A stretch of 64,000 bases of DNA. Origin: Myxococcales bacterium. GTDB taxonomy: Bacteria > Myxococcota > Myxococcia > Myxococcales > JAKAPL01. Numbering within the stretch: the first letter of the stretch is position 1; every line of letters starts with the position of its first letter. The notes under the pieces were generated by a model. It had not been told where the DNA came from and searched no databases. It saw only the letters and a program-made list of their open reading frames with translations. The DNA lies in assembly GCA_021807105.1 (NCBI GenBank), contig JAKAPL010000010.1:1-64000 (forward strand), written 5' to 3'. Position numbers and translations under genes: made by a program. Of this stretch, positions 26,824 to 42,124 are shown in pieces.

Positions 26824-28680
26824 CTAGACGATGTCTTCCTGGGTCACCGACAGGAGCTCGGCGATGGACGTGCTCCCGCGCAGGACCTTGGACGCGCCGT
26901 CCTGGATGAGGGTGCGCATCCCCTGGGCGATGGCCGTCTTCTTGATCGTGCCGGAGTCGACCTTGCGCAGGATGAGCTGGCGCACCTCGTCGGTGACCAG
27001 CATCATCTCGTAGATGCCGATGCGGCCCCGGTAGCCCGTGCCGTTGCAGGCCGGGCACCCCTTCTCCCGGTAGAGGCGGTCGACGCCGGCCTCGCGCAGC
27101 GAGTCGGGGCCGAGCCCGATCTCGGCGAGCGCCTCGGCCGTCGGCGCGTAGGCCTCGCGGCACTCCTTGCAGAGGACCCGGACGAGCCGCTGCGCGACAC
27201 AGCCCATGAGGGACGAGGCGACGAGGAACGGCTCGACGCCCATGTCCACGAGCCGGGTCACCGCGCCGGGGGCGTCGTTCGTGTGGACGGTGGAGAAGAC
27301 CAGGTGGCCGGTGAGCGACGCCTGGATGGCGATCTCCGCCGTCTCCAGATCGCGGATCTCGCCGACCATGATCACGTCCGGGTCCTGCCGCAGGAAGCTG
27401 CGCAGCCCCGAGGCGAACGTCAGGTCGATCTTCGGGTTCACCTGGACCTGGCCGATGCCCTTGATCTGGATCTCGACCGGGTCCTCCACGGTCAGGATGT
27501 TCAGCTCGGGGGTGTTGATCTGGGAGAGCGCCGCGTAGAGCGTCGTGCTCTTGCCCGAGCCCGTCGGCCCGGTGACCAGGATGATCCCGTGACTCCGGTG
27601 GATCAGGGAGTCCATGACCTCGAGCTGCTCGGTCGAGAAGCCCAGCTCGCCGAGGTCGAGCAGGACCGCGCTCTTGTCGAGCAGCCGCATGACGAGCCGT
27701 TCGCCGTGGGAGGTGGGCACGGTCGAGAGTCGGATGTCGATGTCGCGGCCGGCGAGCTTGATCCGGATCCGGCCGTCCTGGGGGAGGCGCGTCTCGGCGA
27801 TGTTCAGGTTCCCCATGATCTTGACGCGCGAGGCGATGGCTTTCTGGAACCGCTTGGGGGGCTTGATCTTCTCCCGCAGGACGCCGTCCACCCGGAAGCG
27901 CACCGACAGCTCCCGCTCGAACGGCTCGATGTGGATGTCGGAGGCCCGCTCCTTCGCCGCCTGGAAGAGCAACGAGTTGACGAGCTTGATGATCGGCGCC
28001 TCGTCCTCCCCCGCGTCCAGGAGGTCCTGCGGCTCCTCCAACTCGTGGGCGAGGCTCGCGAGGTCTTCGCCCGCCATGTCGTCCATGAGCCGCTCGGCCT
28101 CGTTGGCGGCCCGGTCGTAGACCTGGTTGATGGCGTCGAGGACGGCCTGCGGGGGGGCGACGTGGGGCGAGACCGGCGCCTCCAGCAGCATCCGCGCCTC
28201 GTCGAGCAACGCGGTGTCGAGCGGATCGCCGGTCGCGAGCACGATCGTCTCCCCCTCGCGGCGCAGCGGCAGCACCTTCGCCTGCTTGGCGAAGTTGATC
28301 GGCAGCTTCTGGATCAGGTCCGTGGGGACCGCGTCGATCGGCAGGCGCGCCGAGAACGGCAGGTCGAGCTGGAGGGCGAGCGCGGAGAGGACCTGCTCCT
28401 CGGTGACCACCTTGAGGCCCACCAAGAGCTCCCCCAGCCGGCCGCCCTTCTCCGCCTGCTGCGCGAGCGCCTCGTCGAGCTTCTCCCGCGACAGCCCCGC
28501 CGTCTCGACGAGGATCTCGCCGAGCGGCCGGCTGCACGGCGAAGGCGGCGGCGGGATCGGCCGGACCTCCCGCATCCCGGGCGCCGTCCCGCCCGCTTCC
28601 ATCGGGATCGAGCCGGGCATCTCCACGTTCGTGACAACCTCCGCGGCCACGCCGCCGTTCCGCTGCGTCTTAGTAACCAC
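26824..28680 (-). CDS. gspE: Type II secretion ATPase GspE
   Basis: ILVTGPTGSGKSTTLYAALSQINTPELNILTVEDPVE...LRQDPDVIMVGEIRDLETAEIAIQASLTGHLVFSTVHTNDA; CKEC/CPAC zinc motif. Confidence 0.95.
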   Translation of the reverse strand: MVTKTQRNGGVAAEVVTNVEMPGSIPMEAGGTAPGMREVRPIPPPPSPCSRPLGEILVETAGLSREKLDEALAQQAEKGGRLGELLVGLKVVTEEQVLSALALQLDLPFSARLPIDAVPTDLIQKLPINFAKQAKVLPLRREGETIVLATGDPLDTALLDEARMLLEAPVSPHVAPPQAVLDAINQVYDRAANEAERLMDDMAGEDLASLAHELEEPQDLLDAGEDEAPIIKLVNSLLFQAAKERASDIHIEPFERELSVRFRVDGVLREKIKPPKRFQKAIASRVKIMGNLNIAETRLPQDGRIRIKLAGRDIDIRLSTVPTSHGERLVMRLLDKSAVLLDLGELGFSTEQLEVMDSLIHRSHGIILVTGPTGSGKSTTLYAALSQINTPELNILTVEDPVEIQIKGIGQVQVNPKIDLTFASGLRSFLRQDPDVIMVGEIRDLETAEIAIQASLTGHLVFSTVHTNDAPGAVTRLVDMGVEPFLVASSLMGCVAQRLVRVLCKECREAYAPTAEALAEIGLGPDSLREAGVDRLYREKGCPACNGTGYRGRIGIYEMMLVTDEVRQLILRKVDSGTIKKTAIAQGMRTLIQDGASKVLRGSTSIAELLSVTQEDIV

Positions 28681-31252
28681 CGCCCGGCGCGGGCGCCGGA
28701 GGCGGCGCGGGCTCGAAGACCGCCCCCGGGTGCCGCCGGGCCTTCGGGTGGATGGTCCGCTCGCCGGCCTCGTCTCCGGAACCGCCGTTCTCGACCTTGT
28801 TCTCCTCCTTGCGCAGGCGCACGGTCATCTCCCCGAGCGGGCCGCTCTTGCGCTCGTAGTCGATCGGCACGTGGTAGACCGACGACTCGCCGTAGAAGCG
28901 CTCCACGAACTCCTGCCGTTCCTGGAGCTTCCTTTCGAAGATCTTCCGGAAGTCCGAGGAGTCACGGATGATGTAGGGGGTCAGGAAGAGGAGCAGGTTG
29001 ACCTTCTGCTTCTTCGTCGTGTCGTAGCGGAAGAGCCAGCCCAGGACGGGGATGTCCCCCAGGACCGGCGTCTTGTTCGACGAGGTGACCACCCGGTCCT
29101 GCATCAGGCCGCCGATCACCACGGTCTCCTGGTCCTTGGCGACGATCACCGTCTTGGCCGCGCGCTTGGAGGTCGTCGGCCCAAGGATGGGATCGGTGCT
29201 CGCGATCTCCTCGGTCGACTCGTCCACGGTCAGCCGGACGAAGTCGCCGGCGTTGATCTGCGGCTTCAGCTTGAGCTTCAGCTCGACGTTCGTCCGCTGG
29301 ATCTGCCCCATCGGCAAGGCGCCGCCGAGGGCGCCCAGGCCGCCCATCATCCCGAGCCCGCCCATCCCGCCGAGGCCGCCCATCCCGCCGAGCCCCCCCA
29401 GGCCGCCGAGCCCGCCCATGCCGGCCATGCCGAGCGCCGGGTTCATCCCGACCCCCGGCGCCCCGCCCAAGCCCCCGAGCCCGCCCATCCCGCCGAGCCC
29501 GCCCATCATCCCGAGCCCCCCGAGCCCGAAGCTGAAGCCGGACTGGAACGGCACGTTCTGGCCGACGGTGATTTCCGCCTCCTCGTTGTTCGTGGTCAGG
29601 ATGTGCGGGGTCGAGATGACGTTGCTGTCGCTGCTCGTCTCCAGGGCCTGGAGCAGGATCGCGAAGGAGGGCAGCGGGAACCCGATGGCCTGACCGATGG
29701 CGGTGTTCGCCGGTCCCTGCAGGCCGGTCAAGAAGCCGCCAAGCGAGGCGAGCCCGGAGACGCCGAAGAGCGAGTTGATCCCCTGCGTGAGCGGGAACGG
29801 CTCGGCGCCGATCGGGATCGGGATGGGCTGACCGCCGTTGACTCCAGGGATGGTGGGGGTCGCGATGTAGTGGGAGGCGCCCCCGAAGTTCATGTCGTGC
29901 TCGAGGTTGACCTCCATGATGACCGCCTCGACGAACACCTGCCGCTGCGGCCGGTCGAGCTTCCCGATCACCTTCTCCAGGCTGTCGAAGTCGTTCGGGC
30001 CGGCGACGATCACCAGGGCGTTCGCCTGCTTGTCGGGGCTGATCTTCACCTGCCCCTCGAAGACCGATTGCTGGCCCTGGCCCGGCGGGCCGATCCGCCG
30101 GCCCTGCGAGACCCCGGAGATCAGGTTGGTGAGCGTCTGCGAGAGCTTCTCCGCCTCGGCGTTCTCCAGGTAGACGACGTGGATCTGTCCCTCGCCGGGG
30201 ACCGGCACGTCGAGCTGCTGCACGAGCGCTTCGATCTGGTCGAAGGACTCCGCGCTCGCGATGACGACGAGCTTGTTGGTCCTCTCGTCGGGGATGATCT
30301 TCGTCAGGCGGACCGTCCTCTCGGTGGCCTTGCCGGGGGGCAGCGTCTCGCCGTGGACGCCATACGGCACGGTGATCGGCGAGGGGCGGTTCGCGCCCGG
30401 CCCCATCCGCCCCTTGTTCTGGGCCTGGAAGATGTTCTGGAGCTTGTCCGCGAGGTCCTGGGCCGAGCCGTAGACCACCTGGATGAGCCGGACCTCGTCC
30501 CCTCCGGAGGGGAGATCGAGCTGCTGGATGATCGTCTCCAGCCGGTGCATGTTGAGCGCCATGTCGGTGACGATCAGGAGGTCCGGCTGGTAGGTGCGGA
30601 TCATCCCGTCCGGCCCCATCAGCTCCTGGAGGATCGGGTTCACCGCGTCGGGGTCGACGTGCTTGAGCCGGAAGAGCCGGGTCACGTACTGCTCGGTCTC
30701 GGGGTAGGCCTGATCGCCGACGAACGTCGGGACGGGCTTGCGCCGCGCGTCCCGCTTCTCGACGATCTTGTAGTACTTGCCGGTCTGGTAGATCGCGAGG
30801 TTGTTCGCGTCGAGGACGGCCAGGAAGGCGGCGAAGACCTCGTCGGCGGTGATGAACTCGGTGCCGTGCTTGGGGCCGATCAGGGTAATCCGGCCGTGGA
30901 TGTTCTCCGGCACGATGAAGAGCTTGCCGGTGATGTCCGCGATCTGTTGGACGAGGTCGGCGATCTCGGCCTTGTCGAAGTTGAGCTGGTACTTGTGATC
31001 CTTGCGGATCACCTTGTCCTTGCCCTTCTCCTTGGGGTCCCCCGGGGAGGAGGAGGAGGGCCCGATCAGGGTGCCGGGCGGCGGGGGCCGGCTCGTGTCC
31101 ACGGAGATGCCGGTCGGGAGCCGCGGCGGGAAGAAGCGCGTCCGCGGGGCGCGCAACGCCTGCCCCACCGCTTGCGCCCGCGCCGCCGCCGGGGAGGCCG
31201 CCACGCCGAGGAGGAGGAGGACGGCCGCCGCCGCGGACTTACTGGATCGCAT
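28670..31252 (-). CDS. gspD: Type II secretion secretin GspD with Gly/Met/Leu-rich insertion
   Basis: N0/N1 domains (NFDKAEIADLVQQIADITGKLFIV) and secretin domain (LLQALETSSDSNVISTPHILTTNNEEAEITVGQNVPF...VPVLGDIPVLGWLFR). Confidence 0.95.
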   Translation of the reverse strand: MRSSKSAAAAVLLLLGVAASPAAARAQAVGQALRAPRTRFFPPRLPTGISVDTSRPPPPGTLIGPSSSSPGDPKEKGKDKVIRKDHKYQLNFDKAEIADLVQQIADITGKLFIVPENIHGRITLIGPKHGTEFITADEVFAAFLAVLDANNLAIYQTGKYYKIVEKRDARRKPVPTFVGDQAYPETEQYVTRLFRLKHVDPDAVNPILQELMGPDGMIRTYQPDLLIVTDMALNMHRLETIIQQLDLPSGGDEVRLIQVVYGSAQDLADKLQNIFQAQNKGRMGPGANRPSPITVPYGVHGETLPPGKATERTVRLTKIIPDERTNKLVVIASAESFDQIEALVQQLDVPVPGEGQIHVVYLENAEAEKLSQTLTNLISGVSQGRRIGPPGQGQQSVFEGQVKISPDKQANALVIVAGPNDFDSLEKVIGKLDRPQRQVFVEAVIMEVNLEHDMNFGGASHYIATPTIPGVNGGQPIPIPIGAEPFPLTQGINSLFGVSGLASLGGFLTGLQGPANTAIGQAIGFPLPSFAILLQALETSSDSNVISTPHILTTNNEEAEITVGQNVPFQSGFSFGLGGLGMMGGLGGMGGLGGLGGAPGVGMNPALGMAGMGGLGGLGGLGGMGGLGGMGGLGMMGGLGALGGALPMGQIQRTNVELKLKLKPQINAGDFVRLTVDESTEEIASTDPILGPTTSKRAAKTVIVAKDQETVVIGGLMQDRVVTSSNKTPVLGDIPVLGWLFRYDTTKKQKVNLLLFLTPYIIRDSSDFRKIFERKLQERQEFVERFYGESSVYHVPIDYERKSGPLGEMTVRLRKEENKVENGGSGDEAGERTIHPKARRHPGAVFEPAPPPAPAPGGGY

Positions 31253-32183
31253 AGTGGTAGTTCGTGCTCTGGCCGCCCCGCTCGATCTGGAGGTCGAGCG
31301 CGCCGGCGTTGCGCAGCTTGGTGTACGCTTCGAGGGCCTTGTCTGGGCTGTCCATGTCGTAGCCGTTGATCCTCTGGATCACGTCGCCGTTCTGGATGCC
31401 GATCTTCGAGTAGAGGCTGTCCGGGCGGACGGAGAAGAGCTTGAACCCGTTGGCCCGTCCGTTCTTGAACGACGGCACGATCCGGGCCTGCATCGCGAGG
31501 TCGTTCAGGTTCGCGAGCGCGTTGTTCACGGTCGAGCGCTCGATCTGGTAATGGCGGTCGTCGATCCGGCGGATGCCCGCGCCGAGGTCCGCGGACTTCC
31601 CTCCCGCCGGCGCGGCCGGACGGCCCCAGGCAGGCCGCGCGCTCCCCGTGCCGGAGGGCTGGTTGTCGATGAACTCACGCCGGCCGTCGTTCATGACGAT
31701 CACCCAGGGCGTGTCCGGGTGCTCGTCGGCCGGCCCCTCGATGTCGACCACGGTCGCCCCCATGAACGGGTCGCCGACCATGTAGACGGAGGTCTGGTTC
31801 TGATCGAGGTCGCGCAGGCTGGCGAGCGACCACTGGGGCCGGTTCGCGAGGGCGGTGCCCATGAGCTGCGAGTGGAGGCTCGTCCGGACGGGGGCCGAGG
31901 AGTTGTCGACGTCCTTGGCCTTCTCGGCGGCGTCCTTCTCGACCTCCGCCGCCTCGGGCAGCTTCATGCCCATCATCCTCGCGAAGGCCTCTTGCGAGAT
32001 CGGCTCGGACACGAGGGCGCTCACCGGCGCGCGGTAGTCGAGGACCGCGTGCGGGGGAGGGCGGATCTTCTCGGCGGCGACGAGGTTGACGGTCCGCGCG
32101 GACAGGTAGCTCCCCGCAAGCAGGAACGACAACGTCACGGTCCAGAAGTAGCGTTCGAGGCCGACTTGGAGGGCTCTGGGCAT
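31239..32183 (-). CDS. gspC: Type II secretion GspC
   Basis: N-terminal TM, HR domain and PDZ-like KLFSVRPDSLYSKIGIQNGDVIQRINGYDMDSPDKALEAY. Confidence 0.88.
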   Translation of the reverse strand: MPRALQVGLERYFWTVTLSFLLAGSYLSARTVNLVAAEKIRPPPHAVLDYRAPVSALVSEPISQEAFARMMGMKLPEAAEVEKDAAEKAKDVDNSSAPVRTSLHSQLMGTALANRPQWSLASLRDLDQNQTSVYMVGDPFMGATVVDIEGPADEHPDTPWVIVMNDGRREFIDNQPSGTGSARPAWGRPAAPAGGKSADLGAGIRRIDDRHYQIERSTVNNALANLNDLAMQARIVPSFKNGRANGFKLFSVRPDSLYSKIGIQNGDVIQRINGYDMDSPDKALEAYTKLRNAGALDLQIERGGQSTNYHYAIQ

Positions 32184-32313
32184 GGCTCCTTCTGCCGACG
32201 AAGCAAGCAACGTGCCAGCGGCCGGCGCAGCTAGGAAATGGCGCGGGTCGAACCAATTCCCGCGATCGTCCATTCCAGGCCCCCTTCCGGCCAGGGATCG
32301 CCCGGCCCCCCCA

Positions 32314-32828: not shown

Positions 32829-32875
32829 GAAACCCTCCTCAAGGTGCAGGTGCCTCCGTGACCCAACCCAACCGG

Positions 32876-32948
32876 TGGAGCTGAACGGGATCGAACCGTC
32901 GACCTCCTGAATGCCATTCAGGCGCTCTCCCATCTGAGCTACAGCCCC
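32876..32948 (-). tRNA. tRNA-Ala (anticodon GGC)
   Basis: Reverse complement GGGGCTGTAGCTCAGATGGGAGAGCGCCTGAATGGCATTCAGGAGGTCGACGGTTCGATCCCGTTCAGCTCCA folds into a canonical cloverleaf. Confidence 0.93.
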
Positions 32949-33261: not shown

Positions 33262-33599
33262 GGGCGCGTTTCGTAACAGAGGGAGGGCGACTCGTCAATT
33301 GGGCTCTTCGGCGCAAGCAGTGGCTCGCTGACCCTTATGAAACCATGAGACCTGCGGGGAGAGCCTCCGCTTTGCGCCTCCTGGCTTCCTGCGGGTCTCT
33401 TCGATGGCCATTCCCTTTCCGAGCGGTGAACGGCTGCCGCCGCGCGGCCCGCGCGCGGTGAACGGTTCCGCACAACGGACCCATTGGATCTTTTTGAGCC
33501 TTCATGGATGGAGGTGGGGTGAAAACGGGATCCCGTGACAGCCATCGTGGAGGAGACAGACAAGCGCCTGGAATCACGGGCGAATCCGGCCGTCGCGGC

Positions 33600-33850
33600 G
33601 CCGGCCCGAAGCGACGCGGAGGCGGATCGAAGCGATCCCGAGGTTGATCGAAGCCATGCGGCGGTGGATCGAAGCCATGCGGCGCCGGATCGAAGCCATG
33701 CGGCGCCGGATCGAAGCCATGCGGCGGTTGATCGAAGCCATGCGGCGGTTGATCGAAGCCATGCGGCGGTTGATCGAAGCCATGCGGCGGCGCATCGAAG
33801 CCATGCGGCGCCGGATCGAAGCGATCCCACGCCGGATCGAGACGATCCAC
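33600..33850. repeat. Tandem repeat, 21-bp unit (gatcgaagccatgcggcggtt-like), ~11 copies, open in several frames
   Basis: Consecutive gatcgaagccatgcggcg(g/c)(t/c)(t/g) units; encodes IEAMRRL/R heptads on + and MASINRR heptads on -. Confidence 0.9.
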
Positions 33851-33991
33851 CCCGGGATACGCCGCGCGCGGGAGGAGCTCGGCCCCCCCGACCGCGCGTC
33901 AGGCGCCATCCGGCGCTCCGCCATCGCCCCAGGGAGCCGGCAGCCCTAGGGCCCTTGACCTCGCCCCCTCCGGCGCGGGACGCTCATCGCC

Positions 33992-36913
33992 ATGGAGCCC
34001 GCGGACCTCGTCTTCTGGCGCCTGCTCCTCCTCGGCGCCGCCACCGGGACTTTCCAGACGCTCTTCGCCCGCGAGTACCTCGCGGCGTTCGCGGGGAACG
34101 AGTCCGCGCTCGCTTCGCTGCTCGGGCCCTGGCTCGCGCTGACCGCGCTCGGGGTCGCGATCGGGCGGCGCACGGGCTCGCTCGCGCGGGGGGAGCCTGC
34201 CCCTCCCCGCGACGGTTCCGCCTGGTTCTTCGCGGTGGGGCCGCTCTCGGCGCTGGCCCTCGCCGGCGCGCGGCTCCTGCCGCGGCTCTTCACGGGGGGC
34301 GCCGCGCCGGGCGGGCTCTGGGCGCTCTCCTCGGCGGCGCTCCTGCTCGCCCCGGCCTGCCTCTCTGCGGGCGCGGCCTTCGGGGCGGCCACCTCCCGGG
34401 CCTCGCCGGGGCCGCGGGCGGCCGAGACGCTCGGGCGCGGCTACGTCGGCGAGGCGATCGGCAGCGCGGCCGCGGGCGCGGCGCTCTCGCTCCTCCTGCT
34501 CGGCCGCGTGCCGCCCTTCGCGCTCGCGGGCGGCGCGGTCGCGCTCTCGACGGCCGCGGCGGTCCTCGGGTCGTCCCGCGCCCTCGCGCTCCCGGGGGTC
34601 GCACTCGCCGCCGCCCTCCTGCCCGCGGGCCCCTTCCTCCTCCGCCACCAGGCGAGCTTCCTGGCCGGCGCGACCGAGGAGCCGTCGGCGTACGGATCCG
34701 TCGTCATCGCGAAGCACGACGGGCAGACGACGGTCTTCGCCGACCGCCTGCCCGCCGGATCGAGCGGGGAGCGGTTCGCAGCGGAGGAGGCGGCGCTGCC
34801 GCTCGCCTTCGTCGGCGACCCCGGCAGGGTCGCCCTCATCGGGACGGCGCCGATCGGGACGGTCCGGCAGGCGCTGCGCCAGGGGGCCCGGCGCGTGGAC
34901 GTGCTCGTCGAGGATCCGGCGCTCGCGGCGGCGCTCCGGTCGGCGTTCCCGGACGAGTACGCGGACCCGCGCGTGCGCCTCCTCGCCGGCGACGCGCGCC
35001 GCTTCCTCGTCGCGGCCGGCCACGCCTTCGACGCGATCCTCCTGCGCACCCCCGAGCCCTCGACCGCGCAGCAGAACCGCTTCTACACCGCGGAGTTCTT
35101 CGCCGCCGCCCGCGACGCGCTCCGCCCGGGCGGCCTCTTCGCGCTCGCCCTGCCGGGCTTCTCCGAGTACGCGGCCCTCCCCCGCCGGCGGCTCTACTCC
35201 TCGGTCCGCGCGACGCTCGGCACGGCCTTTCGCTCGGTGCGCCTGCTCCCCGCGGGCGAGACGCTCTTCCTGGCCGCGCCCGAGGAGGGGCGACTCGCGC
35301 GGCCCGACCCGGCCGGCGCGATCTCCGCCGTGCTCGCCCGCCGCGGGGTCGCCCCCGTCCACGTGACGCCCGCGACGCTCGCCGTCCTCCTCTCCCCCGA
35401 GCGGCTCGCGGAGGCGGCCCGCTGGTCCTCGCTCGCCGAGCCGATCAACCGCGACCTGCGGCCGACGACCTACCGCCTCGCGCTCGATCGGATCCTCGAC
35501 GAATTCGGCGACCTCGGGGAGGGCGCGCTCCTCGTGCTGGCCGCCGCCCTCGCCCTCGGCGCGCTGCTCGCCTTCGGCCCGCGCTCGCGGCCGGTGGAGC
35601 TCGCGGTGCTGACGAGCGGCGCCGCGGGCCTCTCGGTCGAGCTGATCTCGATGCTCGCCTACCAGATCGCGACCGGCGCGCTCTACCGCGAGCTGGGGCT
35701 CCTGCTCGCCGCGTTCATGGCCGGCGCGGCCGCCGGGGCCCGCCTCTTCGCGCGCCGCGGCCGCTTCCTCCTCGCGGGCGACGCGCTCCAGGGGCTCCTC
35801 GCGGCGGGGCTCGCGCTGCTGCTCCCGCGCCTCGTCGGGAGCCCCCTCGCGGCCCGCGTCGCGCTGCCGGCCGCCGTCGCCGCCGCGGGGTTCTTCGCCG
35901 GCGGGCAGTTCGCCGCGGCCTCCCGCGCGCTCGCGCAGCCGCGCTCGCTCTACGCCGCCGACCTGCTCGGCGCGGCCGTCGCGGCGCTCGTGACGCTCCT
36001 GTTTCTCGTCCCGGCGCTGGGGCTGCCCGGCGCCCTGGTCGCGGTGGCGGCGATCAAGGTCGGGAGCGGCGCGGCGCTCCTCTCGGCGCGGCCCCGCGCG
36101 GCGGCGGGGGGCAGCCCCCTCGCGCCGCTCGTCCCGCTCTCCCTCGCCGGCTTCGTCCTCGCCGTCGCGGCCGACCCCACGGAGGTCCCGCTCTACGCCG
36201 CGGCGTTCAGCGTCGGCTACCGGGCGGCGGCGTGCGCCCTCCTCGCGGGCGTCCTGCTCGCCGCGTTCACGCCGCGCCGCGCGCGGGCCGCCTTCGCCGC
36301 GCTCGCCCGCCGCCTGGAGCCGCTGCGGCGCGCGACGGGCCTCGCGTGGGCGCGCCTCGCGACGTTCGTCCTGCTCCTGCCCATCGCCGCCTTCCCCGTG
36401 GGCCGCTGCTACTTCCAGATCCCCTTCCTCTTCTGCCACGTCTGCCCGCGCCGCTGCCCGTTCGGGGTCTTCCGCCCGTATGCCGTGCCCGTCGCGCTCC
36501 TCGGGAACCTCGGCGACCGCCGCTTCTGCGAGCGGGTCTGCCCCCTGGGGAGCGCGCAGGCGGCCGTCGAGAGCGTCCGCCCCGGGCGGGCGCGCCGGCG
36601 GCCGGCGCTCGCGAAGGTGCGGCTCGCCGTCCTCGTCTTCGCCGCCGTGGCCTACTTCCTCGTCGAGCGCGGCCACGGCCCGGGCCTCGAAGGGACCGGG
36701 CTCTACGCCGTGCTGGCCCGCGGCGCGTTCCTCCCGTCCCTCTGGGTGATCACCGCCATGGCCCTGCTCCTGCTCCTCGCCCTGTTCGTGCGCCGCCCGT
36801 TCTGCGACGCCCTCTGCCCCATCGGCGCGGCCTCCTCGCTCCTCGCCCCGGTCGAGGAGGGGCTCGTCCGCCTCCGCCTCCCGCGGCGCGAGCCCGCCCC
36901 GGAGGGGCCATGA
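33992..36913 (+). CDS. Membrane fusion protein: spermidine-synthase-like methyltransferase fold plus C-terminal NapH/NosR-like 4Fe-4S polyferredoxin
   Basis: GDPGRVALIGTAPIGTVRQAL...DPRVRLLAGDARRFL...YTAEFFAAARDALRPGGLFALALPG; C-terminal CYFQIPFLFCHVCPRRCPFG, FCERVCPLGS, FCDALCPIGA. Confidence 0.75.
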   Translation: MEPADLVFWRLLLLGAATGTFQTLFAREYLAAFAGNESALASLLGPWLALTALGVAIGRRTGSLARGEPAPPRDGSAWFFAVGPLSALALAGARLLPRLFTGGAAPGGLWALSSAALLLAPACLSAGAAFGAATSRASPGPRAAETLGRGYVGEAIGSAAAGAALSLLLLGRVPPFALAGGAVALSTAAAVLGSSRALALPGVALAAALLPAGPFLLRHQASFLAGATEEPSAYGSVVIAKHDGQTTVFADRLPAGSSGERFAAEEAALPLAFVGDPGRVALIGTAPIGTVRQALRQGARRVDVLVEDPALAAALRSAFPDEYADPRVRLLAGDARRFLVAAGHAFDAILLRTPEPSTAQQNRFYTAEFFAAARDALRPGGLFALALPGFSEYAALPRRRLYSSVRATLGTAFRSVRLLPAGETLFLAAPEEGRLARPDPAGAISAVLARRGVAPVHVTPATLAVLLSPERLAEAARWSSLAEPINRDLRPTTYRLALDRILDEFGDLGEGALLVLAAALALGALLAFGPRSRPVELAVLTSGAAGLSVELISMLAYQIATGALYRELGLLLAAFMAGAAAGARLFARRGRFLLAGDALQGLLAAGLALLLPRLVGSPLAARVALPAAVAAAGFFAGGQFAAASRALAQPRSLYAADLLGAAVAALVTLLFLVPALGLPGALVAVAAIKVGSGAALLSARPRAAAGGSPLAPLVPLSLAGFVLAVAADPTEVPLYAAAFSVGYRAAACALLAGVLLAAFTPRRARAAFAALARRLEPLRRATGLAWARLATFVLLLPIAAFPVGRCYFQIPFLFCHVCPRRCPFGVFRPYAVPVALLGNLGDRRFCERVCPLGSAQAAVESVRPGRARRRPALAKVRLAVLVFAAVAYFLVERGHGPGLEGTGLYAVLARGAFLPSLWVITAMALLLLLALFVRRPFCDALCPIGAASSLLAPVEEGLVRLRLPRREPAPEGP

Positions 36914-38061
36914 GGCGCGCCTTCCTCAAGAAGTGCGCCGCGGCCGGCGGCCTCGCGCTGCTCGGCCCCTCCGCGTGGAAGGAGCTCTTCATGGGCGAAG
37001 GCGCGCCGGGGCTCGACATGGGGTTTCGCGACGACGCGCCCGAGAAGCTCGACCGCTTCTCGCGGCCGGCGGCCTTCGCCGTGCGCAGGGGGAGGCTCGT
37101 CCAGTGCGTGCTCTGCCCCCACGCCTGCATCCTCGGCGAGAACGATCGCGGCTACTGCCGCACGCGGGTCGTGAAGGACGGCGTGCTCCAGACCGTCGCC
37201 TACGGCAACCTCTGCACCGCGGCCCTCGACCCGGTGGAGAAGAAGCCGCTCTACCACTTTCTGCCTGGCCGGCCGATCCTCTCGGTGGCCATCGGCGGCT
37301 GCAACCTGCGCTGCCTCAACTGCCAGAACTGGGAGATCTCGCAGAGGCGGCCCGCGGAGGTGGCCGAGCAGGAGGCGTTCCCCGAGGAGCTGGTGGAGCT
37401 CGCCGTCCGGCGGAAGATCCCGCTGCTCGCCTACACCTACTCCGAGCCGATCGTCTGGTACGAGTACGTCCGCGACACGGCGGCGCTCGCGCGCAGACGG
37501 GGGCTGCGCAACGTCCTGGTGACCGCGGGGTTCATCCATCCGCGGCCGCTGCGCGAGCTCTGCCCGTCCATCGACGCGGTGACGCTCGACGTGAAGGCGC
37601 TCACCCCCGCGCTCTTCCGCCGGATCTCGACCGCCCGCGTCGAGCCGGTCCTGCGCGCCCTCCGGATCCTCCGGGAGGAGGGGGTCTGGGTCGAGGTGAG
37701 CTTCCTGATGGTGCCGACGCTCTCCGACTCGCCGGACGAGATCGGCCGCTTCGCCGGCTGGGTCGCCGAGAACCTCGGACCGGGGACGCCGCTGCACCTC
37801 CTCCGTTTCCATCCGGCGAACCGACTCCTGCAGCTCCCGCCGACGCCGATCGAGGAGATGGAGCAGGCGCGGCGGCGGGCCCGCGAGTCCGGCCTCGACT
37901 TCGTCTACCTGGGCAACGTGGCGGGCCGCGAGGCCGGCTCGACCTACTGCCCCCGCGACGGCCGGCTCCTCATCGAGCGCGACGGCATGGAGGTCGTCGA
38001 GAACCACCTCGTCGGCGGCCGCTGCCCCTGCGGCGAGGTCATCCCCGGCGTCTTCACCTAA
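36910..38061 (+). CDS. amrS: AmmeMemoRadiSam system radical SAM enzyme (AmrS-like) with twin-arginine N-terminus
   Basis: MRRAFLKKCAAAGGLALLGPSA; CVLCPHACILGENDRGYCRTR; GCNLRCLNCQNWEISQ (CxxxCxxC-type); CPRDGRLLIERDG. Confidence 0.88.
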   Translation: MRRAFLKKCAAAGGLALLGPSAWKELFMGEGAPGLDMGFRDDAPEKLDRFSRPAAFAVRRGRLVQCVLCPHACILGENDRGYCRTRVVKDGVLQTVAYGNLCTAALDPVEKKPLYHFLPGRPILSVAIGGCNLRCLNCQNWEISQRRPAEVAEQEAFPEELVELAVRRKIPLLAYTYSEPIVWYEYVRDTAALARRRGLRNVLVTAGFIHPRPLRELCPSIDAVTLDVKALTPALFRRISTARVEPVLRALRILREEGVWVEVSFLMVPTLSDSPDEIGRFAGWVAENLGPGTPLHLLRFHPANRLLQLPPTPIEEMEQARRRARESGLDFVYLGNVAGREAGSTYCPRDGRLLIERDGMEVVENHLVGGRCPCGEVIPGVFT

Positions 38062-38080: not shown

Positions 38081-38896
38081 ATGGAGCCCACGAGACCGAA
38101 CGCGCCGGAGCGCCGGGAGGCAGGCTCCCTCTCCATCGATCGCCTCCCGCCTCTGCGCCCCTGCGCGCCGTCCCACCTCCGGGGAGGCGCCCGGCCGCCC
38201 CGGCGCCTCCCCGGCCTGCTCCTCGCGCTCCTCGGCCTCGCCTGCAGCCGCCAGAAGGCCGCCGCCGCGCCCTCCGGTCCCCGGCTCGATCGGACCCTTT
38301 CGGCCCCCGAGGGACGCTTCGAGCTGCTCGCGGGCGAGCAGGAGGCGCTCCTCGGGCTCGCCCGCCGGGCCGTCGCCGCCGCGGCCGCCGGCGGCGAGCC
38401 GGTCGCGCCCGACGCCGAGCTCCTCCGCCGCTTCCCGCGGCTCGCCGCGACGCGGGCGGCGTTCGTGACCCTCAAGGAGGGGGGGGAGCTGCGCGGCTGC
38501 ATCGGGAGCCTCGTCGCGCACGAGCCGCTCGCCGCGGACGTCGCCCAGAACGCCCTCTTCGCGGCGCGCTACGACAGCCGCTTCACGCCGGTCCGCCCCG
38601 AGGAGGTGGCGGGGATCGAGATCTCGATCTCGGTCCTCGACGTCCCGCGGCCGCTCCCGCTCGCGGGGGAGGCCTTGCTCGTCGCCCTCGCGAAGGACCA
38701 TCCCGGCGTCATCCTCGACGTCGGCGGCCGCCGCTCGACGTTCCTCCCCGAGGTCTGGGAGGAGCTCCCCGCGCCGGCGCCGTTCCTCGCCGCCCTCTGC
38801 CGCAAGCAGGGCTCGCCGGAGGATTGCTGGCGGCGGCCGGAGGCGCGCTTCCAGAGCTACGGCGCGCAGTACTTCGGGGAGGAGAGGAGGCGATGA
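38081..38896 (+). CDS. amrA: AMMECR1-domain protein (AmrA-like), possible lipoprotein
   Basis: AFVTLKEGGELRGCIGSLVAHEPLAADVAQNALFAARYDSRFTPVRPEEVAGIEISISVLDVPRPL; LLALLGLACSRQ lipobox-like; start codon uncertain. Confidence 0.85.
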   Translation: MEPTRPNAPERREAGSLSIDRLPPLRPCAPSHLRGGARPPRRLPGLLLALLGLACSRQKAAAAPSGPRLDRTLSAPEGRFELLAGEQEALLGLARRAVAAAAAGGEPVAPDAELLRRFPRLAATRAAFVTLKEGGELRGCIGSLVAHEPLAADVAQNALFAARYDSRFTPVRPEEVAGIEISISVLDVPRPLPLAGEALLVALAKDHPGVILDVGGRRSTFLPEVWEELPAPAPFLAALCRKQGSPEDCWRRPEARFQSYGAQYFGEERRR

Positions 38897-39850: not shown

Positions 39851-40585
39851 ATGAACGAGACGGAGCAGGACGGGCTGTCGCGCCTGGGCGACGGGGCGGG
39901 GGATCGCCTGCTGCGGCACCTGCTCCACGCCGCGCACGACGGGATCGTCGTCGCGGGCCCGGACGACGTCGTGCAGATCTTCAACCCGGCGGCCGAACGG
40001 CTGTTCGGCCGGCCTGCCTCCGGCGTCATCGGGTCGCTCCCGCTCGATCGGCTCTTCCCCCCGGGGGCGTGGACCCACCTGCGCCGCCATCTCTCGCGCG
40101 CGAGCGGCGGCCCGATCGAGGCCGAGGCGCTCGACGCCTCCGGCGATCGCGTCCCGATCGACCTGTCGCTCCAGCCGCTGGCCGGCGCCGGCATGGCCTG
40201 GATCGTCTGTGGCCTGCACGATCGGCGCCCCCGGGCCGCGCTCGAGGAACGTCTCGCCCGCGCCGAGACGCAGCTCCGGATGGGGCTGCGCCCGGCGATG
40301 CTCTCCGAGCTGGCGGCGGCGGTGGCCCACGAGCTGAACCAGCCGCTCACCGCGATCTATGGGAACGCGGAGCTGGTCCGGCGGAAGATGGTCGAGGGGA
40401 CGCCGGAGGCCGCGCGGCTCGACTCGCTGCTGGCGGAGGCGGACCGGATGGCGGAGGCGATCCGCAGGATCGGCAGCGTCACGCGGTACGCGACGAAACC
40501 CTACGTCGGCCAGTCGCGGATCATGGATCTCGACCGGCCTGGCGACACGGGGCCGCGAGACCCTCCGGACGGCGAGGAGCCGTAG
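39851..40585 (+). CDS. PAS + HisKA (DHp) protein without a visible HATPase domain
   Basis: PAS: DGIVVAGPDDVVQIFNPAAERLFGRPASGVIG; HisKA: ELAAAVAHELNQPLTAIYGNAELV; stops soon after. Confidence 0.75.
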   Translation: MNETEQDGLSRLGDGAGDRLLRHLLHAAHDGIVVAGPDDVVQIFNPAAERLFGRPASGVIGSLPLDRLFPPGAWTHLRRHLSRASGGPIEAEALDASGDRVPIDLSLQPLAGAGMAWIVCGLHDRRPRAALEERLARAETQLRMGLRPAMLSELAAAVAHELNQPLTAIYGNAELVRRKMVEGTPEAARLDSLLAEADRMAEAIRRIGSVTRYATKPYVGQSRIMDLDRPGDTGPRDPPDGEEP

Positions 40586-40681
40586 GCGATCGTCGCGCTC
40601 GGCCCGGGCCCCCTGGCGGGCTCCTGCCCCCCGGCGTTCCCCCGATCGGCTTCCCCCGGTCAACCCGGGTATACTCCCCCG

Positions 40682-42124
<1,443 letters not shown>

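Follow-up and report, generated by a model that had tools for sequence, protein, structure and literature searches.

What brings a spermidine-synthase-like fold and a redox module of the 4Fe-4S type together in one membrane protein? The question is raised by a gene in the window (here, the whole 64,000-nucleotide stretch of DNA that was analysed), which runs directly into a gene for a radical-SAM enzyme. Radical-SAM enzymes need SAM and low-potential electrons, and for this reason they are seen as cytoplasmic. The initial annotation had described the fusion alone, and the operon and system context, which it had not seen, is the more interesting part.

Fusion gene

The open reading frame comprises the 973 codons noted at the outset and has no internal stop (Table 1). 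An antisense ORF of 925 aa overlaps it. Because long chance ORFs are common at the GC content of the window, the genuineness of the frame was settled by homology: full-length relatives (47-53% identity) occur in other genomes of the phylum. In Pfam, both halves are significant, with PF01564 (Spermine_synth) matching residues 312-384 (27.5 bits, cut-off 22.9) and PF12801 (Fer4_5) residues 918-952 (25.2 bits, cut-off 22.0). The initial annotation would have been undone by a frame or assembly error joining two genes, or by domain searches that failed to support one half. Neither was the case, the former being ruled out by the single ORF, its conservation in relatives, and the domains in both halves. 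The motifs it had listed are all in place (GDARRFL at 333-339; C806-x8-C815-x2-C818-P-x2-C822-P; C846-ERV-C850-P; C938-DAL-C942-P). Thus, the fusion of a spermidine-synthase-like fold with a redox module in one membrane protein is real.

The fusion protein is single-copy in its genome, where a second, weak match is a generic SpeE-like protein. A phage or viral origin was dropped, as the protein has no relatives in IMG/VR. We also rejected a defence system, for which PADLOC gave just a weak mad2 match on the SpeE/methyltransferase fold. Directly upstream of the gene is a 21-bp tandem repeat array of about 12 copies (unit GCGGCGCCGGATCGAAGCCAT; window 33595-33855), which could influence expression.

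Table 1. Features of the window and of related loci. Positions refer to the window unless a locus is named; residues are those of the encoded protein.
Feature	Position	Strand	Size or basis
Fusion gene, SpeE-like membrane protein (14 TM) plus NapH/NosR-type redox module	33992..36913	+	973 aa
TM1-6 (residues 3-191), first half of 2x6 tandem repeat	33998..34564	+	AlphaFold2 helices, hhalign
TM7 (residues 196-218)			AlphaFold2 helices
Spermidine-synthase-like domain (residues about 225-490), predicted extracytoplasmic	34664..35461	+	
TM8-14 (residues 509-698), with TM9-14 the second half of the repeat	35516..36085	+	AlphaFold2, K+R counts, hhalign
NapH/NosR/RdhC-like redox module (residues 790-943)	36359..36820	+	PF12801, TIGR02163 below cut-off, alignment, TM/Cys map, low-confidence model
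C806-x8-C-x2-CP-x2-C822 motif, predicted periplasm-facing loop	36407..36457	+	Conserved in 5/5; sidedness inferred
First CX3CP (CERVCP), predicted cytoplasmic	36527..36544	+	
Second CX3CP (CDALCP), predicted cytoplasmic	36803..36820	+	
AmmeMemoRadiSam radical-SAM enzyme	36910..38061	+	383 aa; TIGR04337 313.5 bits, cut-off 220, 1.5e-93
Twin-arginine signal MRRAFLKKCAAAGGLALLGPSAWK of the radical-SAM protein	36910..36981	+	TIGR01409 22.3 bits, cut-off 16.7; conserved in clade
Radical-SAM CxxxCxxC motif (CNLRCLNC), intact	37300..37323	+	
AMMECR1 / AmmeMemoRadiSam protein A	38081..38896	+	PF01871 6.6e-38; TIGR04335 161.6 bits, cut-off 99
Probable lipoprotein signal of the AMMECR1 protein, LPGLLLALLGLA-C55, imperfect lipobox	38207..38245	+	Sequence
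Single-ORF fusions SpeE-TM/redox module/radical SAM with internal twin-arginine motif	L120 4323-8594; L121 5278-9357		Candidate new-type Sec/Tat dual-inserted proteins
G010:C56 relative locus: Memo-AMMECR1 lipoprotein fusion, FMN_bind plus CX3CP SpeE-TM variant, ApbE directly downstream	L032 5792-12501		

Spermidine-synthase-like domain and membrane scaffold

AlphaFold2 (27 sequences) models residues 1-700 well, as seven helices, a SpeE fold, and seven helices. This agrees with the N-terminal and further TM helices that had been placed on either side of a "nucleotide-binding core". The core itself is a spermidine-synthase fold (pLDDT about 90), for which the top PDB matches in Foldseek are aminopropyltransferases exclusively. 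TM1-6 and TM9-14 form a tandem repeat (hhalign probability 97.1%, E 7.4e-11), and this 2x6 arrangement is an MFS-type feature. No MFS family model in Pfam matched the fusion protein, no transport family model reached its cut-off, and on relatives NF037959 matched the SpeE part alone, below its cut-off. Counts of K+R alternate over the loops in the 27 sequences, in a pattern that has the N-terminus on the inside, the SpeE-like domain outside, and the beginning of the C-terminal module again on the inside. On this positive-inside analysis, the SpeE-like domain is predicted to be extracytoplasmic.

We refer to this protein and its relatives as the SpeE-TM family. Invariant in the family are D334-x-R336, P356, and R363 inside a PEPxxAQxNRxYTxEFF signature. 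The catalytic motif D-[ST]-x-D-P is missing from the window protein, in which the residues aligned with DSSDP read RTPEP. The protein also scores far under the equivalog cut-offs of NF002956 (45.8 vs 472) and TIGR00417 (25.9 vs 249.6), and on these scores and the missing motif we rejected an active spermidine synthase. Most SpeE-TM relatives keep the positions of the G-rich loop, E-x-D, and D-x-R, and many have an intact SAM glycine loop. In redox-fused members the SAM glycine loop is GxxPxG (GTAPIG instead of GGGxxG in the window), and it is degenerate in several others too. With DSSDP replaced and the glycine loop reduced to GxxPxG, the residues indicate that the domain is probably no aminopropyltransferase. 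In the window protein, it might not bind SAM either. The "SAM/dcSAM-fold" of the initial annotation holds as a fold; the function that the name implies is not demonstrated.

Redox module

The C-terminal module has four probable TM segments. TIGR02163 (NapH/MauN) matches residues 838-953 (1.3e-6) with 28.1 bits, below its cut-off of 213. Profile searches found no PDB relatives of the module, and Pfam found no FMN_bind domain in the window protein. C-terminal 4Fe-4S ferredoxin motifs are absent, the protein stopping about 30 aa past the last CX3CP. Calling this half a "4Fe-4S polyferredoxin" was correct as to a redox module of the 4Fe-4S type and loose as to "polyferredoxin": it is a NapH/NosR/RdhC-like core without C-terminal ferredoxin motifs. 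Eight cysteines (C806, C815, C818, C822, C846, C850, C938, and C942) are conserved in all five proteins with the same module. The positive-inside pattern agrees with a cytoplasmic location of the two CX3CP motifs, but the structural model is poor, the AlphaFold2 prediction (five sequences, pLDDT 47) being too weak for cluster placement. Binding of Fe-S clusters and the outward side of the Cys4 motif are therefore inferences. The CX3CP motifs are possibly disulphides rather than cluster ligands (PMC5928378).

Among 195 surveyed genomes of the phylum, five have the redox module, every time fused to SpeE-TM. In G116 and G120, one ORF (1424 and 1360 codons, respectively) encodes SpeE-TM, the redox module, an internal twin-arginine segment, and the radical-SAM enzyme. 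A sixth genome, G010, encodes a SpeE-TM protein with FMN_bind and a CX3CP module instead, and ApbE downstream, which is the layout of RdhC/NosR (PMC5928378). The CX3CP module of G010 is homologous to that of the window protein (hhalign 90%, E 1.5e-6). Thus, two different transmembrane electron modules are joined to the same exported-radical-SAM partner. In most SpeE-TM relatives from other phyla, no redox module was detected, either fused or nearby. Since most relatives are without it, the module counts as an accessory rather than as the family's core, and SpeE-TM cannot have electron delivery as its core function.

Operon and export signals

The stop codon of the fusion gene overlaps the start of the radical-SAM gene (ATGA), and the AMMECR1 gene follows twenty bases beyond the latter. 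Memo (protein B) is unlinked (G000:C91; PF01875 134 bits, cut-off 27) and has a lipobox-like LLFAAC. The signal of the AMMECR1 protein consists of a basic, hydrophobic stretch ending in LLGLAC, and lipoboxes are clearer in relatives. The Tat and lipobox assignments are based on rules for motif and hydropathy or, for Tat, on TIGR01409. The genome also encodes TatC and an ApbE protein. Because the CxxxCxxC motif is invariant (14/14 aligned exported-class relatives), the exported-class radical-SAM enzymes look catalytic, as far as this motif can tell.

Other genes surround the operon. Upstream are a type II secretion block with GspE-, GspD-, and GspC-like genes, so named by sequence (window 26824-32273, minus strand), and a tRNA-Ala (32874-32948). 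Window positions 39851-42124 (plus strand) encode a PAS-histidine-kinase fragment without an ATPase domain, then an FHA-sigma54 activator.

Distribution and phylogeny

Scanning about 85,000 species genomes for the SpeE-TM family returned 80 loci. In sixteen of the strong matches the radical-SAM gene is close by, in most cases accompanied by a Memo-AMMECR1 fusion protein; a further one has Memo-AMMECR1 without it. Of the other strong matches, several sit on short contigs. According to record titles, the SpeE-TM/radical-SAM set occurs in Myxococcota, Bacteroidetes, Planctomycetota, KSB1, Krumholzibacteriota, Acidobacteria, Spirochaetaceae, Aminicenantes, Electryonea, and others. The Memo-AMMECR1 proteins of these relatives mostly start with a lipobox, signal peptide, or TM anchor, and their radical-SAM proteins mostly with RRxFL-type Tat motifs. 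One SpeE-TM relative adjoins a different, weakly similar radical-SAM protein (L053 7077-8171; E 5e-5), possibly an alternative partner.

Across the 195 genomes of the phylum, radical-SAM scores are bimodal (canonical, 475-650 bits; divergent, mostly 300-393 bits), and SpeE-TM scores split into 22 matches of at least 396 bits and the rest of at most 176. All 21 SpeE-TM genomes have the divergent radical-SAM gene, which is found without SpeE-TM in seven other genomes (Fisher p 1.5e-22, not corrected for phylogeny). Canonical radical-SAM genes show no association with SpeE-TM in the 195 genomes (p 0.74). More than half of the SpeE-TM genes (12 of 22) lie no more than 2 kb from the divergent radical-SAM gene or share an ORF with it. 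One is 20 kb off, and the rest are on other contigs.

In a phylogenetic tree, the radical-SAM domains fall into a canonical clade, a small divergent clade whose members have no signals, and a group that includes every SpeE-linked enzyme. Every radical-SAM protein that shares a contig with SpeE-TM lands in one group. The base of this exported group is weakly supported (local support 0.475), so we treat it as a group and not as a proven clade. A Tat-like signal is present in 31 of 34 members of the SpeE-linked group vs none of the 21 canonical controls. The three exceptions are L032 (the G010 locus, whose radical-SAM protein has no clear Tat signal), L043 (a plain TM anchor), and L061, in which SRREFF is present but did not pass the filter. 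G068 has a Tat-bearing copy alongside an unsignalled one. One genome (G165) has a Tat-group radical-SAM gene without SpeE-TM. A second divergent AmmeMemoRadiSam radical-SAM clade, which is without signal peptides, often shares a genome with a Tat-type copy (L162, L163, L166, L169, L172, L173, L175, and L179).

Proposed role and alternative explanations

Signals and co-occurrence give good support, by computation alone, to an exported AmmeMemoRadiSam set that is conserved and has SpeE-TM as membrane partner. As for the window fusion, we lean slightly towards a role as docking site and electron conduit in the membrane for an AmmeMemoRadiSam system outside the cytoplasm. Two MFS-like repeats of six helices each, together with TM7 and TM8, make up the 14 TM helices that would hold the SpeE-fold domain at the outer face of the membrane. 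In that position the domain, inactive or repurposed, would be a dock for, or otherwise serve, the exported (Tat) radical-SAM enzyme and the Memo and AMMECR1 proteins with their lipid anchors. In the myxococcal lineage, the NapH/NosR-like module would move electrons across the membrane, from the quinol pool or the cytoplasm to the radical-SAM enzyme, with the extra Cys4 motif here, and the FMN domain in one relative, as the putative outward redox centre. The model for this route is the passage of electrons from NapH to NapG; an equivalent transfer has been proposed for RdhC/NosR with their partners in the periplasm. From the analogy with NapH/NapG and RdhC/RdhA, we infer that the module may deliver electrons to the exported enzyme in the window's lineage, which is moderately supported; the direction of electron flow and the donor are likewise inferred. 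As a donor to a radical-SAM cluster, menaquinol (-74 mV) is poorly suited, an unsolved problem that RdhC poses as well.

An exported radical-SAM enzyme has to get SAM, and we know of no evidence that SAM is available outside the cytoplasm. SpeE-TM may therefore mainly translocate or present SAM, or a SAM-derived nucleoside, in the same exported system, with the redox module a lineage-specific add-on. The MFS-like 2x6 helices would export SAM and the outer SpeE-fold domain would receive it for the enzyme. It suits this explanation that the strict partner of the enzyme combines an MFS-like internal repeat with a SAM/dcSAM-family fold on the outside, and that the G-rich loop, E-x-D, and D-x-R positions persist in most relatives. 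Such a role is attractive but weakened, because precisely the redox-fused proteins have a degenerate SAM loop (GTAPIG in the window), as do several others; moreover, no transport family model reaches its cut-off. We consider it unlikely as the main function. A wider proposal is that the system runs wholly extracytoplasmic in many phyla, with SpeE-TM supplying or holding SAM and, in some lineages, also the electron, so that one membrane protein would handle both co-substrates. We regard this as doubtful, if still worth entertaining.

The radical-SAM enzyme might also not be exported at all, its twin-arginine segment anchoring it to the inner membrane facing the cytoplasm, where SAM and reductants are found, and the fusion being an ordinary inner-membrane oxidoreductase partner. 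Some of the N-terminal segments are indeed weakly hydrophobic and without a clear cleavage site, and that of L043 is a plain TM anchor. However, no such extension occurs in the 21 canonical radical-SAM proteins, the Memo-AMMECR1 partners have lipoprotein or signal peptides, the SpeE-like domain is predicted outside, and the one-chain fusions resemble known Sec/Tat substrates (PMC5449189). These observations leave retention on the cytoplasmic side quite unlikely in our view. The redox module could instead be a sensor or a metal or disulphide reductase (CcoG/RdxA- or thiol-type) that tends the iron/copper of Memo or exported Fe-S clusters, and not a donor for catalysis. Relatives of Memo are iron- and copper-binding proteins (PMC11081632), CX3CP motifs could act as redox thiols (PMC5928378), and the module is limited to few genomes. 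Yet in two genomes it is fused to the radical-SAM enzyme and not to Memo, and the variant with FMN and ApbE has a makeup typical of electron supply; we give this explanation very little credence.

Whether radical-SAM chemistry takes place outside the cytoplasm becomes testable, given a conserved exported group with a dedicated membrane partner that is sometimes fused to a transmembrane electron conduit and even to the enzyme. The proposed role would also place the unexplained Memo-AMMECR1-radical-SAM set, which includes relatives of human MEMO1 and AMMECR1, in the cell and provide it with partners for membrane attachment and redox supply.

Comparison with known systems

The component families are known, and it is their arrangement that we did not find described. 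The exported radical-SAM group, its SpeE-TM partner, and the NapH/NosR-type fusions are undescribed in the open-access literature searched, which leaves out most subscription literature, among it the 2019 study of Memo-Ammecr1 systems by Burroughs. All three components of AmmeMemoRadiSam (TIGR04335/04336/04337; function unknown) exceed their curated cut-offs in the window genome. They differ from that system in having export signals, a radical-SAM gene from a divergent clade, and a dedicated SpeE-TM membrane partner, which is outside the three-component NCBIfam set.

Membrane-fused spermidine synthases (NF002956/PRK03612, and the fused MFS/spermidine synthase NF037959) likewise have an N-terminal TM block then a SpeE fold, and relatives of the window protein align with NF002956 over the TM helices and the domain. 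The window protein, in contrast, has a second TM block, PEPxxAQxNRxYTxEFF rather than D-S-x-D-P, a fused redox module, and a score far below the cut-off.

The redox module resembles the electron conduits NapH/MauN, NosR, and RdhC (PceC) in its two CX3CP motifs and its predicted four-TM layout, and the G010 relative has FMN_bind and ApbE as well. Unlike NapH and NosR, the window module is without C-terminal ferredoxin motifs (PMC5928378). It adds C-x8-C-x2-CP-x2-CP, and its partner is a radical-SAM enzyme rather than a respiratory enzyme. A further parallel is the Sec/Tat dual-inserted NapH-NapG polyferredoxin of MLMS-1 (PMC5449189): in G116 and G120, too, a weakly hydrophobic twin-arginine segment lies between a NapH-like module and a C-terminal Fe-S enzyme. 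That enzyme is a radical-SAM protein instead of NapG, and in the window the corresponding parts are encoded by two separate, overlapping genes.
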